From NCBI GenBank assembly GCA_012838665.1, contig DUOX01000019.1, forward strand, positions 1-64,000: a stretch of 64,000 bases of DNA, in the 5' to 3' direction. The stretch comes from Clostridiales bacterium (GTDB lineage: Bacteria > Bacillota > Clostridia > Oscillospirales > Oscillospiraceae). Below the pieces are notes generated by a model. That model ran no database searches. It was given only the letters and a program-made list of their open reading frames with translations, and had not been told where the DNA came from. The position numbers and the translations under genes were made by a program. Shown piece after piece: positions 15,622-25,850 of the stretch. How positions within the stretch are numbered: position 1 is the first letter of the stretch; every line of letters starts with the position of its first letter.

Positions 15622-15759
15622 AGGCATTGCCGTGCGTTGTGTATAATAGCACAGAAAGCTATCAAATGTCAATGTTCTTAATTTAATGCCGATATTGACT
15701 TTATTTCTGTAAAAATGTAATATTAAATGAATTCACAATTAAATATGGGAGGTGCGGTT

Positions 15760-16587
15760 GTGGAACTCTATAATTATGATATTCTTATAGAAAAAGCCCA
15801 GAACCTTAAAAGAAAAGGCACAGTGGCCGTGGCCGCGGCAGCCGACAAGCATGTTATCGAAGCGACCCTTGAGGCTAAGAACAACGGCGTTGCAGAACCT
15901 ATATTCGTAGGAGATGACTCAAAAATTCGCAAGATTTTACGGAATATGGGACTTAATCCCTCGGACTTCAATATTGCCCCTCCCGCTAAAGGCTTGAACG
16001 AAGCTGAAACGGCTGTGGAGCTTATTAAGGACGGCAGCGCTACCTTCCTGATGAAGGGTATGCTGGAGACCACAGACCTTCTGCGCCCCGTTGTCAAGAA
16101 GGAAAACTCGGCATGACCCCTTATCCGGACCTCCAAAAGAAAAAAGAAATACTTATTAACGCTGTCGAAGCTTACCACAAGTTGGGATATGAACTGCCCA
16201 AAGTGGCCTGCCTTGCCTGCAAGGAGACTGTGGATCCGAAAATGCCGGAGACCACTGACGCCCGCGCCCTTCAGGAGATGTGCCAGCGGGGCGAGCTGGG
16301 CAAGTGCGCCGTTATCGGGCCACTTTCCTATGATATAGCCATGAGCAGGGAGATTGCGGCCATTAAGAAATATGACTTCGAATATTGCGAGGATTTCGAT
16401 ATTCTGCTCCAGCCCAATATCCATGCCGGCATATTATGGGCAAATGCTGGATAGTATCCTGCCGCGCCGTTATGGCCGGTATTGTTATGGGGTGCAGGGT
16501 GCCCATCGGCTTTCCTCCAGGGGTTCCTCCGCCTCCGAGAAATACCTTTCCCTGGCCATGGCTGCAGTAGTTGCCGCCGCGGATTGA
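15760..16587 (+). pseudogene. ptb: Decayed phosphate butyryltransferase gene
   Basis: An intact Ptb is about 300 residues and makes butyryl phosphate from butyryl-CoA. The first frame (GTG 15760, GGGAGGTG upstream) reads normal N-terminal Ptb through FLMKGMLETTDLLRPVVKKE, then stops at 16116. About 30 family residues, including the SHVAVFE-type segment, are missing. A second frame (16113-16454) continues with YPDLQKKKEILINAVEA, PKMPETTDARALQ and LLQPNIHAG. After that, three frames must be stitched to recover IMGK, VMAGIVMGCRVPI and LSSRGSSASEKYLSLAMAA, ending at 16587. One deletion and several frameshifts make a working enzyme very unlikely. No butyrate kinase gene lies alongside. Confidence 0.87.
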
Positions 16588-16609
16588 TTTCGCGTTTTCT
16601 TCAAAAGTC

Positions 16610-16634
16610 ATGGGGCGGCAGAAGGCCGCCCCAT
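16610..16634 (+). terminator. GC-rich hairpin after the ptb remnant
   Basis: ATGGGGCGGC/GCCGCCCCAT, 10 bp with a 5-base loop, is followed by AATACTATT. The U-tract is poor; it is probably the old ptb terminator. Confidence 0.5.
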
Positions 16635-16678
16635 AATACTATTAAGCCAATTGAGAACTGAAAGGAACGGTCAGACTG

Positions 16679-20023: not shown

Positions 20024-20052
20024 ATTATACACGATTTAATTAATGTTTACAA
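20024..20052 (-). promoter_or_regulatory. sigma-A promoter for glnS
   Basis: On the minus strand TTGTAA (20052-20047), a 17-base spacer, then TATAAT (20029-20024). The -35 box shares five bases with the -35 box of the divergent promoter. No T-box is present in the short leader. Confidence 0.75.
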
Positions 20053-20074
20053 TATGGCAACTTTATTATATAAT
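20046..20074 (+). promoter_or_regulatory. sigma-A promoter for the thioredoxin reductase gene
   Basis: TTTACA (20046-20051), a 17-base spacer and a perfect TATAAT (20069-20074). Its -35 hexamer overlaps the glnS -35 hexamer on the other strand. Confidence 0.8.
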
Positions 20075-20097
20075 CAGGCGGAAAGGCGGGTGTTTTC

Positions 20098-20910
20098 ATG
20101 CCAAATTCGGCAGATATTATCATTGTTGGAGGCGGCCCCGCGGGCCTAAGTGCCGCAATGACCGCGCGAAACCGGGCAAAAAGCGTCATTGTCATCTCAA
20201 ACCCGGCTGAAGCAAGCGGACTTTATAAAGCCGAAAGGGTGGACAATTATCCCGGTCTTCCCCAGATAAAGGGGGCGGATATCCACGGGGCTATGCTAAG
20301 CCACGCCCTTGCTCTAGGGGCGGAGTTCATTACGAAAAGGGTAATCAGCGCCATGCCTTCAGGAAACGGTTTTTTTGTATCCGCAGGGGCAGATTTTTAT
20401 GAGTGCCGCGCTCTTATTGTGGCCACCGGTATAGTTCAGAGCAGCGCTTATCCCGGCGAAAAGGAACTGCTGGGCAGAGGTGTCAGCTATTGCGCTACCT
20501 GCGATGGTATGCTGTACAGAGGCAAAAAAGTGGCGGTTATCGGGCTTTCCTCCGATGCGGAGGAGGAGGCTGATTTCCTGCGGGGCATCGGCTGCGAGGT
20601 GCTTTACTTCAACAAACCGCAAAAGTATCAGATAATCGGTGGGGATAAGGTGGAGGCCCTCTCCGCTGCTGGTACGGAGCACAAGGTGGAGGGAGTGTTT
20701 ATTCTGCGGAATACCCTTGCCGTGTCGTCCCTGCTGCCCGGCATTGAGATGGAGGACAACCACATTAAAGTGGGCCGGGACATGTCCACCTCCGTTCCCG
20801 GTCTTTTCGCGGCGGGCGACTGCACAGGCAGGCCCTATCAAATCGCAAAAGCAGTGGGCGAGGGCAATGTTGCTGCTCTGTCGGCAGTTGCCTGGCTTGA
20901 TAAAAAATAA
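20098..20910 (+). CDS. Short thioredoxin reductase-like flavoprotein, probably not NADPH-dependent
   Basis: The FAD domain is clear: IIIVGGGPAGLSAA (residues 7-20) and, near the C-terminus, PGLFAAGDCTGRPYQIAKA. The redox-active disulfide CATC is at 132-135. The pyridine-nucleotide domain is reduced: total length is 270 residues against about 305-320 for ordinary TrxR. The GxGxxA loop is GLSSDAEEEA (149-158), and the HRRxxxR signature for the NADPH 2'-phosphate is absent (FNKPQKYQ instead). That combination matches flavin thioredoxin reductases known in clostridia and Gloeobacter that take electrons from ferredoxin or have lost NADPH use. The thioredoxin gene follows at 21023, its probable partner. 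Electron donor is inferred, not shown. Confidence 0.85.
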   Translation: MPNSADIIIVGGGPAGLSAAMTARNRAKSVIVISNPAEASGLYKAERVDNYPGLPQIKGADIHGAMLSHALALGAEFITKRVISAMPSGNGFFVSAGADFYECRALIVATGIVQSSAYPGEKELLGRGVSYCATCDGMLYRGKKVAVIGLSSDAEEEADFLRGIGCEVLYFNKPQKYQIIGGDKVEALSAAGTEHKVEGVFILRNTLAVSSLLPGIEMEDNHIKVGRDMSTSVPGLFAAGDCTGRPYQIAKAVGEGNVAALSAVAWLDKK

Positions 20911-21022
20911 TTTTAACAGCCTAAATTTTGGGGCAGAATTTGCGTAGAACCTATCAATATAAAGAATATAATATGGCATTATCACTGCAATAGTAAGAAT
21001 AAAGACACAAAGGAGAATGAAA

Positions 21023-21331
21023 ATGGCAGTGTTACATCTTACAAATGAGGATTTTGACGAGACTATAGCCGAAGGTACGGTACTGGTGGATTTCTGGGCT
21101 TCATGGTGTGGCCCCTGCAGAATGTTTTCCCCTACTATAGAGAGTTTAGCCGAAAAATATGAAGGCAAAGCTAAAATATGCAAGGTAGATGTGGATGCGG
21201 AGCCGGAGCTCGCACGAAGATTTGGAGTCATGAGCATACCTACCATTATTGTCTTTAGAGATGGAACTGAAACTTCCAAACGCGTAGGGGTTCAGCCTAT
21301 GGCAGAACTGGAAAAAATGCTTGAGGGCTAA
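21023..21331 (+). CDS. trxA: Thioredoxin
   Basis: A 102-residue classical thioredoxin with the active site WCGPC (C29, C32), preceded by VLVDFWAS, and with the cis-proline loop SIPTIIVF. It reduces protein disulfides in the cytoplasm. ATG 21023 is preferred because AGGAG lies 7 bases upstream; ATG 21017 would sit almost on the ribosome-binding site. It follows the flavoprotein reductase gene by 112 bases. A weak TATAAT at 20968-20973 may allow separate transcription. Confidence 0.95.
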   Translation: MAVLHLTNEDFDETIAEGTVLVDFWASWCGPCRMFSPTIESLAEKYEGKAKICKVDVDAEPELARRFGVMSIPTIIVFRDGTETSKRVGVQPMAELEKMLEG

Positions 21332-21332
21332 C

Positions 21333-21361
21333 TTGACAATATTCCCGCATTATTTTATAAT
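21333..21361 (+). promoter_or_regulatory. Consensus sigma-A promoter for the valS T-box leader
   Basis: TTGACA (21333-21338), exactly 17 bases, then TATAAT (21356-21361). It starts right after the trxA stop and sets the beginning of the leader RNA near 21368. Confidence 0.88.
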
Positions 21362-21367
21362 TACTGA

Positions 21368-21603
21368 AAATTGCCAAAGGCGATGACGGGGAGGAGTAGG
21401 CGCAAAGCCGCTCTATAGAGAGGGAGTGCGTGGTGAAAGCTCCCGGGCGCTTGCGTTGAAAGTCGCCCCTGAGTCTTCAGTCTGAATTAATTAGGTCTGA
21501 ACGGGTACCTCCGTTATCGGGTATAGAGTGCGGCAGCTTTGCCGAACTCAGGTGGTACCGCGTGTTATTGCGCCCTGAGACTTTTCTTGGGGCGTAGTTT
21601 ATT
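21368..21603 (+). promoter_or_regulatory. T-box riboswitch controlling valS (specifier GUC, Val)
   Basis: The conserved T-box AGGTGGTACCGCG is at 21550-21562. Stem I contains AGAGAGGGAGTGCGTGGTG and the specifier region GAAAGTCGCCCCTGAG, in which GTC (21462-21464) stands in the specifier position; GTC is a valine codon. The terminator stem CGCCCTGAGA/TCTTGGGGCG (21571-21594) has a 4-base loop and is followed by TAGTTTATTTT. Uncharged tRNA-Val would pair with specifier and T-box, favour the antiterminator and let transcription run into valS. Confidence 0.95.
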
Positions 21604-24321: not shown

Positions 24322-24364
24322 GGCACCGTACAGGGCTTGTCCCTGTGCGGTGCCATTTCTGTTT
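24322..24364 (+). terminator. Terminator after valS
   Basis: GGCACCGTACAGGG/CCCTGTGCGGTGCC is a 14-bp stem with one G-T pair and a 5-base loop, followed by ATTTCTGTTT. It is 75 bases past the valS stop and 14 bases before the spoIIAA start, so it also shields the sporulation operon from read-through. Confidence 0.8.
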
Positions 24365-24377
24365 GCGAGGTATAGAT

Positions 24378-24698
24378 ATGAAAGTTTTGTCATCTTACAA
24401 GAATGGAAGGCTTACGCTCTTTTTCAAAGGTGAGCTTGACCACCACAGCGCAAAAAAAGTTATGAACACCATAGACCAGTTAATTGACGAATACCTGCCC
24501 AGAGACTGCGTAATGGAACTGTCCGGCCTGAAATTTATGGACAGCTCGGGCATTGCCGTGATTCTCAGAGTCTATAAGCGCATGAATGAGATGGGGGGCA
24601 GGGCCTGGGCAGAAAACCCGCCCCGTCAGCCCATGAGGGTCATAGACGCCTCCGGCATTGACAGAATTGTTAAGATTTCCACCACAATGAAGGAGTGA
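24378..24698 (+). CDS. spoIIAA: Anti-sigma factor antagonist SpoIIAA
   Basis: A STAS-domain protein of 106 residues. Dephosphorylated SpoIIAA binds SpoIIAB and frees sigma-F in the forespore. The phosphorylation loop is LKFMDSSGIAVILR, with S56 or S57 as the phospho-acceptor. ATG 24378 is chosen over an in-frame upstream ATG at 24345 that lies inside the preceding terminator hairpin. It is first in the spoIIAA-spoIIAB-sigF operon, 7 bases ahead of spoIIAB. I could not identify a convincing sigma-H promoter. Confidence 0.94.
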   Translation: MKVLSSYKNGRLTLFFKGELDHHSAKKVMNTIDQLIDEYLPRDCVMELSGLKFMDSSGIAVILRVYKRMNEMGGRAWAENPPRQPMRVIDASGIDRIVKISTTMKE

Positions 24699-24705
24699 AG
24701 TATTA

Positions 24706-25143
24706 ATGAAAACAAAGAACTACATAAAAATGGAATTTCCTAGCAGGTCTGTCAATGAAGGCTTTGCCCGGGCCGCCGTAGCCTGCTTTGCTGCCCAACT
24801 GGACCCCACTTTGGAGGAACTGGGTGATATTAAAACCGCAGTCAGTGAGGCTGTGACCAACTGCATAGTTCATGCCTATCCGGACAGTATAGGCAAAATT
24901 AGCCTGCGTGCCCGGATTATTGATAATAACACCCTGGAGATAGTCATAAAGGACTGGGGCAAGGGTATTGAAGATATTGAAAAGGCCAGAGAACCCATGT
25001 TTACCACAGGAGGCGAGGAGCGCAGCGGCATGGGCTTTACCATTATGGAGAGCTTTATGGATAAGCTCCGTGTTCGTTCAAGTCCTGGCCGGGGAGTTAC
25101 TGTCACCATGCGCAGGCGCATTGCCGTCAGGACGGCAGAGTGA
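24706..25143 (+). CDS. spoIIAB: Anti-sigma-F factor and kinase SpoIIAB
   Basis: A GHKL-fold serine kinase of 145 residues that holds sigma-F inactive and phosphorylates SpoIIAA. The N-box is EAVTNCIVHAYP, the G1 box KDWGKGIEDIEKAREPMF and the G2 box ERSGMGFTIMESFMD. Its stop overlaps the beginning of sigF. Confidence 0.96.
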   Translation: MKTKNYIKMEFPSRSVNEGFARAAVACFAAQLDPTLEELGDIKTAVSEAVTNCIVHAYPDSIGKISLRARIIDNNTLEIVIKDWGKGIEDIEKAREPMFTTGGEERSGMGFTIMESFMDKLRVRSSPGRGVTVTMRRRIAVRTAE

Positions 25144-25145
25144 TT

Positions 25146-25850
25146 ATGGACAAGACCCTTGAACTGCTGAGGGCGGCTCAGGGGGGGGATAAAGAAGCAG
25201 TCGAGCGGATGATTCAGGAAAACTCCGGCCTTATATGGAGCATTGCACGGCGGTATTTCGGGAGGGGAGTGGACTCCGACGACCTTTATCAGTTAGGCTG
25301 TGTAGGATTTATAAAAGCAGTGCAGGGCTATGACGAGAGCTTTGGTACCCAGTTTTCCACTTATGCCGTTCCCAAGATTTCCGGGGAAATACGCAGATTC
25401 CTGCGGGACGACGGGGCGGTCAAGGTCAGCAGAAGTATCAAGGAGAAGGCCCAGGTAATACGTTCCACCAAAAACATGCTTGAGCAGCGGCTTGGGCGCG
25501 ACCCCACCCTGTCTGAGATTTCCCGGGAAACCGGCTTTACGGTTGAAGAAATTGCAATGACCGAGACTGCCACAGGCCCTGCCGAGTCCCTTCAAAAGGA
25601 AAACAGTGAAGACGGCTTTACCCTTGAACATGTGCTAGGGGACTACGGCCAGGAGGATCGCCTGGTGGAGCGCATGGCACTCCGGGAAGCCATCAGCGCC
25701 CTGCCGGAGCGGGAACAGAAAGTTATAGCTCTGCGTTTTTATCACGGTCTGACCCAGGATGCCACCGCAAAGATACTGGGAGTGTCCCAGGTGCAGGTTT
25801 CCAGACTTGAGCGGCGCGCAATAGAGGCTTTGAGAAAAATATTGGTCTGA
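25146..25850 (+). CDS. sigF: Forespore sigma factor sigma-F
   Basis: The first forespore-specific sigma factor. Region 2 shows NSGLIWSIARRYFGRGVDSD, DLYQLGCVGFIKAVQGYDES and FSTYAVPKISGEIRRFLRDD. Region 3 has RLGRDPTLSEISRETGF. The region 4 helix-turn-helix is LTQDATAKILGVSQVQVSRL. The length, about 234 residues, is normal. ATG 25146 is used; GTG 25140 would add two residues and overlap spoIIAB by 4 bases. Confidence 0.95.
   Translation: MDKTLELLRAAQGGDKEAVERMIQENSGLIWSIARRYFGRGVDSDDLYQLGCVGFIKAVQGYDESFGTQFSTYAVPKISGEIRRFLRDDGAVKVSRSIKEKAQVIRSTKNMLEQRLGRDPTLSEISRETGFTVEEIAMTETATGPAESLQKENSEDGFTLEHVLGDYGQEDRLVERMALREAISALPEREQKVIALRFYHGLTQDATAKILGVSQVQVSRLERRAIEALRKILV

Follow-up and report, generated by a model that had tools for sequence, protein, structure and literature searches.

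The protein encoded at positions 20098 to 20910 (+) of the window, meaning the whole stretch of 64,000 nucleotides that was analyzed, is a largely ordinary, slightly trimmed member of the described family of clostridial ferredoxin-dependent flavin thioredoxin reductases (FFTRs). By analogy with its characterized relatives, we consider it very probable that this clostridial-type FFTR, called P0001 hereafter, takes its electrons from ferredoxin and passes them to the neighboring thioredoxin. It appears to be the only thioredoxin reductase of its host. Should this reading hold, the ferredoxin pool, and not NADPH, would supply every thioredoxin-dependent reduction in this anaerobe.

The P0001 open reading frame (ORF) encodes 270 residues and is free of internal stops. 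All on the + strand, it specifies a FAD-binding loop, GGGPAG, in which GxGxxG is present (residues 11 to 16, positions 20128 to 20145), a redox-active CATC site (residues 132 to 135, 20491 to 20502), and a second FAD-contact motif, AGDC (residues 239 to 242, 20812 to 20823). Between them, the former NADPH loop has degenerated to GLSSDAEEEA and lost GxGxxA (residues 149 to 158, 20542 to 20571), and a reading of all 270 residues revealed no HRRxxxR-like motif. The original prediction of intact FAD motifs and CATC in an unusually short protein, with an altered second loop and no HRRxxxR, was thus borne out. Across 41 aligned homologues of P0001, C132, A133, C135, and D136 are invariant, as are G240 and D241 of the AGDC motif. 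The TIGR01292 profile matched the P0001 ORF at 2.7e-57 and 193.9 bits, below the cut-off of 343.45, a score that by itself is no test of FFTR membership. Given this match and the invariant residues of the alignment, the motif set is not due to chance. A frameshift or a truncation as the source of the small size was discarded, since nothing interrupts the ORF, the gap keeps the reading frame, and the homologue L120 has the same gap. The protein ends with AWLDKK directly after its last helix and is devoid of the cyanobacterial-type tail with its stacking tryptophan. GRG is present, and LY is found where FF is expected after CxxC, as also in the PDB entries 6gna and 6gnc.

In a comparison with all PDB sequences, the best matches of P0001 were 6gnc (1.5e-59), 6gna (4.2e-59), and 6gnd (1.1e-57), followed by the first non-FFTR, 7aaw (2e-38). 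According to Table A1 of PMC8469568, 6gnc is CaFFTR2 and 6gnd is a reductase-thioredoxin complex. P0001 shares 41.8% identity with the 6gnc segment and 42.2% with that of 6gna, compared with 34.8 to 36.3% with three NADPH-type PDB segments. We built two trees, with group labels set beforehand from motifs and best matches; L067, which is 26 aa long as cut, was left out of both. In the first one (67 rows, without L120), P0001 and both solved FFTRs were found within one 14-row group (support, 100/99), apart from 37 NADPH-type (NTR) rows and 16 TRi-like rows, with P0001 alone and adjoining the solved FFTRs and their kin. The second tree had 70 rows, namely, 42 FFTR loci, 6gna, 6gnc, 13 NTR rows, and 13 TRi-like rows, the latter two sets being hand-picked and including all 7 new TRi-like loci. 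It yielded an FFTR clade of 44 rows that includes P0001 (100/100). Both trees agree with the labels. The position of P0001 in the clade of the Clostridium acetobutylicum FFTRs supports the proposal that it is of the FFTR or a related pyridine-nucleotide-independent type, and in neither tree did it fall inside the canonical NADPH-dependent clade.

An AlphaFold2 model of P0001 was generated from the 41-row FFTR alignment (mean pLDDT, 92.0; pTM, 0.79). Foldseek ranked 6gnc (5.0e-34) and 6gna (3.1e-33) at the top for this model. With VIA-align, the model gave a Z score of 34.1 and 2.3 Å over 269 residues with 6gnc, 33.7 and 2.2 Å with 6gna, and 29.9 and 3.2 Å with the Gloeobacter FFTR 5j60, compared with Z scores of about 26 to 28 and whole-chain rmsd values of 9.6 to 14.5 Å for the NADPH-type enzymes listed. 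These large whole-chain values are taken to reflect another angle between the two domains, and P0001 is predicted to take the open, flavin-reducing domain arrangement of FFTRs. The fit of the model supports the assignment but does not prove it, since these PDB entries may have been among the data from which AlphaFold2 learned.

Could P0001 instead be an NADPH-dependent thioredoxin reductase that has diverged, with an altered but still functional NADPH site? It does belong to the same superfamily, as indicated by its TIGR01292 match, and it retains the identity given above to NADPH-type segments. However, both GxGxxA and HRRxxxR are absent, its CxxC-to-AGD spacing is 107 compared with 139 to 142 in the 7 of 13 NTR rows whose motifs were correctly located, and both trees exclude it from the NTR clade with full support. 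We therefore rejected an NADPH-type identity on the basis of the lost motifs and the tree placement, and we regard it as highly improbable. Membership in the atypical group of short reductases related to the Desulfovibrio TRi would account for a small size without HRRxxxR, and such proteins are common in the same order. Nevertheless, they make up a clade of their own in the first (100/99) and second (100/97) trees, with P0001 outside, their active sites are mostly CAVC, their spacing is 125 to 127 (133 in 5nii), and 5nii superposes less well on the P0001 model (5.0 Å). This identity was rejected by both trees and seems next to inconceivable.

For the FFTR assignment itself, the question is which carrier delivers the electrons. 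An FFTR-like enzyme might be served by a low-potential carrier other than free ferredoxin, such as flavodoxin, rubredoxin, or an iron-sulfur domain of another enzyme, and iron-sulfur proteins are numerous in the host genome, with 23 PF12838 matches. Against this, the nearest characterized relatives are described as ferredoxin dependent (PMC12796991, PMC8469568, PMC9025218), and the genome encodes a small stand-alone ferredoxin; we judge such a carrier to be unlikely. The initial wording, "ferredoxin or another donor," can likely be narrowed to ferredoxin by analogy with these enzymes. In the cycle described for the Gloeobacter FFTR, ferredoxin reduces FAD in the open form, and then a domain swing lets the disulfide be reduced, and electrons pass to thioredoxin (PMC12796991). 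P0001 retains the parts needed for a cycle of this type; its donor, its partner, and the cycle itself we infer from the characterized enzymes. A P0001 homodimer in the open arrangement would thus transfer two single electrons from reduced ferredoxin to its FAD. Once the disulfide domain had swung in, CATC would be reduced from disulfide to dithiol by the reduced flavin, and from this dithiol the electrons would move on to the neighboring thioredoxin. Pyruvate:ferredoxin oxidoreductase (PFOR) would maintain the supply of reduced ferredoxin, which would also be connected to the Rnf and [FeFe]-hydrogenase systems.

We searched the genome of the host (1.76 Mb in 61 contigs, 97.99% complete), which is the only one representing its genus in a genus-level genome search. 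With the TIGR01292 profile, P0001 scored 148.6 bits and all other matches at most 68 bits, and no canonical thioredoxin reductase was found by this search, although one could lie in the missing part of the assembly. A family-library scan of the weaker matches took in L006, L007, L008, and L012 and left out L010 and L011. By their matches, L006 looks CoA-disulfide-reductase-like (448.4 bits; cut-off, 458), L007 looks like the glutamate synthase GltA (596.3 bits, above the cut-off), and L008 and L012 look like NuoF/GltD-type proteins. The L006 frame (L006:1024-2154, -) begins at profile position 74 of 444, the N-terminal part being absent from it. The catalytic subunit of the iron-sulfur FTR (PF02943) had no match in the genome, whereas a control search was positive in 2 of 14 genomes. 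The neighboring thioredoxin is the sole PF00085 match, a count that thioredoxins too divergent for this profile could escape. The ferredoxin-using enzymes found were PFOR (1394.6 bits), RnfC (526.7 bits), RnfB, and an [FeFe]-hydrogenase that scored 736.3 bits with the A6 profile (cut-off, 765) and 471.5 bits with TIGR02512, above its cut-off. The stand-alone ferredoxin is a 57-residue protein of the FdxA family (82.6 bits).

The reductase gene is followed, after 106 bases and on the same strand, by a gene for a thioredoxin of 104 aa with a WCGPC motif (21017 to 21331, +; TIGR01068, 122.8 bits; cut-off, 96.8). Its start is probably at 21023, as AAGGAG, read by eye, is found at 21011. Directly upstream of the reductase gene is a promoter-like TTTACA-17-TATAAT (20046 to 20074, +), identified by its consensus match only (11 of 12 positions), in a 1.75-kb region with 11 promoter-like sites compared with 2.1 expected from shuffles. 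A possible ribosome-binding site, AAGGCGGG, was read by eye at 20083 to 20090 (+). The site scan listed no terminator-like site between the two genes, and a common transcript for both is plausible from the sequence. At least 25 of 42 FFTR loci have a thioredoxin gene next to the reductase gene on the same strand; this lower bound comes from a text pattern applied to 1.5-kb flanks, some of them shorter, and it includes L107 and L018, in which the stop-to-stop thioredoxin frame overlaps the reductase, and leaves L014 without a match even though its close relatives L013 and L016 matched.

Several other features were seen around this locus. A perfect sigma-70 consensus, TTGACA-17-TATAAT, is present at 21333 to 21361 (+) between the thioredoxin gene and valS, and a terminator-like hairpin precedes valS at 21567 to 21598. 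About 3.4 kb downstream, at 24345 to 25850 (+), lie spoIIAA-like and spoIIAB genes followed by an ORF of 236 aa, which sits in what we take to be the usual place of sigF. The SpoIIAA-like protein scored 76.9 bits with the spore_II_AA profile, under the cut-off of 114.75. This set of genes suggests that the host is a spore former. Upstream, a phosphate butyryltransferase gene is broken (15727 to 16660, +), with one frame covering profile positions 4 to 113 and the following ORF 146 to 249, some 32 unmatched positions between the two parts, and no intact C-terminal end.

We determined how frequent such enzymes are in related genomes. CATC-type FFTR rows were found in 11 of 147 sampled genomes of the order, that of P0001 included, among 30 loci read. 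In the family, a match above the TIGR01292 cut-off was present in 33 of 150 sampled genomes, and 43 had matches but none at the NADPH-type level; 22 of the latter were classified, as 17 FFTR and 5 TRi-like, and the other 21 were left out. The FFTR is thus the best TIGR01292 match in 17 of 150 family genomes, including that of P0001; of these, 12 reach 90% completeness or more with contamination no higher than 5%. Of 37 further loci that were fetched, 30 joined the FFTR clade of the second tree and the remaining 7 its TRi-like clade. The latter group (L023-L031, L033-L037, L040, L084-L087, L089, L090, and L111) is a second, mostly CAVC set of short proteins without HRRxxxR, nearest to 5nii, common in the order and distinct as a clade. 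In a survey of 349 genomes, most Clostridia and Negativicutes have both NADPH-type and non-NADPH reductases, with a few exceptions in copy number (PMC10880999, section 6). Judging by the proportion of family genomes with an FFTR as the best match, some groups may rely on FFTRs more often than this survey suggests.

P0001 is short even for an FFTR. The other FFTRs first read in the order have 281 to 305 aa, save L015 and L017 with 264 to 265 aa, indicating that part of the shortness of P0001 results from a further deletion. Compared with most FFTRs, P0001 lacks some 14 residues near residues 171 to 174 (20608 to 20619, +), as judged by the CxxC-to-AGD spacing. In the 43 of 44 FFTR rows with correctly located motifs (L103 left out), this spacing is 121 to 129 in 39, 107 in P0001, L015, and L017, and 109 in L120. 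P0001 groups with L120 and L101 in the second tree (100/94), and L015 and L017 are separate and together (100/100). As the L015/L017 pair sits apart from P0001 and L120, two losses, one in each lineage, are the simplest explanation, and the segment was probably lost twice. The first of these events is complicated by L101, which retains the usual spacing (123), and the number of events also depends on the joining of L101 with L120, which is weakly supported (99/66). In the P0001 model, strand 167-171 runs directly into strand 177-181 with no helix between them; 6gnc carries extra residues at this site in the alignment, which we infer to form a helix.

It may be that the lineage of P0001 and L120 and, separately, that of L015 and L017 contain "mini-FFTRs," in which the disused NADPH domain has been trimmed by about 14 more residues, apparently a helix, so that the disulfide domain is smaller, and which would be functionally distinct if the domain swing or the docking is altered. 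We find this idea rather doubtful. To our knowledge, no enzyme with this extra deletion has been assayed. If it were true, one such enzyme would act as the single reductase of a single thioredoxin in an anaerobe that probably forms spores. How much of the former NADPH domain an FFTR requires is a question for which its repeated trimming provides a natural test.

FFTRs are well known from clostridia and from some cyanobacteria (PMC12796991, PMC8469568, PMC9025218, PMC10880999). The closest characterized enzymes are those of C. acetobutylicum (6gna, 6gnc, and 6gnd), which share with P0001 the clade, the CATC site, the loss of both NADPH motifs, LY in place of FF after CxxC, the absence of a long C-terminal tail, and the domain arrangement, that of P0001 being predicted. 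They differ by their identity of about 42% and by the roughly 14 residues that P0001 lacks after strand 167-171. The short TRi of Desulfovibrio vulgaris (5nii) and its relatives in the order resemble P0001 in lacking HRRxxxR but form a separate clade. The Gloeobacter violaceus FFTR (5j60; 6xtf with ferredoxin) has the same pyridine-nucleotide-independent architecture and the open arrangement predicted for P0001, at 3.2 Å. Cyanobacterial FFTRs are described as having a C-terminal tail with the stacking tryptophan (PMC12796991), whereas P0001 is tailless, and thioredoxin-binding motifs GR/KG and FF have been reported for them (PMC9025218). TrxB1 of Clostridioides difficile is likewise described as a clostridial FFTR; it shares an operon with its thioredoxin, TrxA1, and both proteins occur in spores (PMC10880999). 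C. difficile 630 has three TrxA and three TrxB proteins, the NADPH type among them, whereas we found one of each in the genome of P0001. An FFTR as the only system for thioredoxin reduction is reported for Gloeobacter and Prochlorococcus (PMC12796991).
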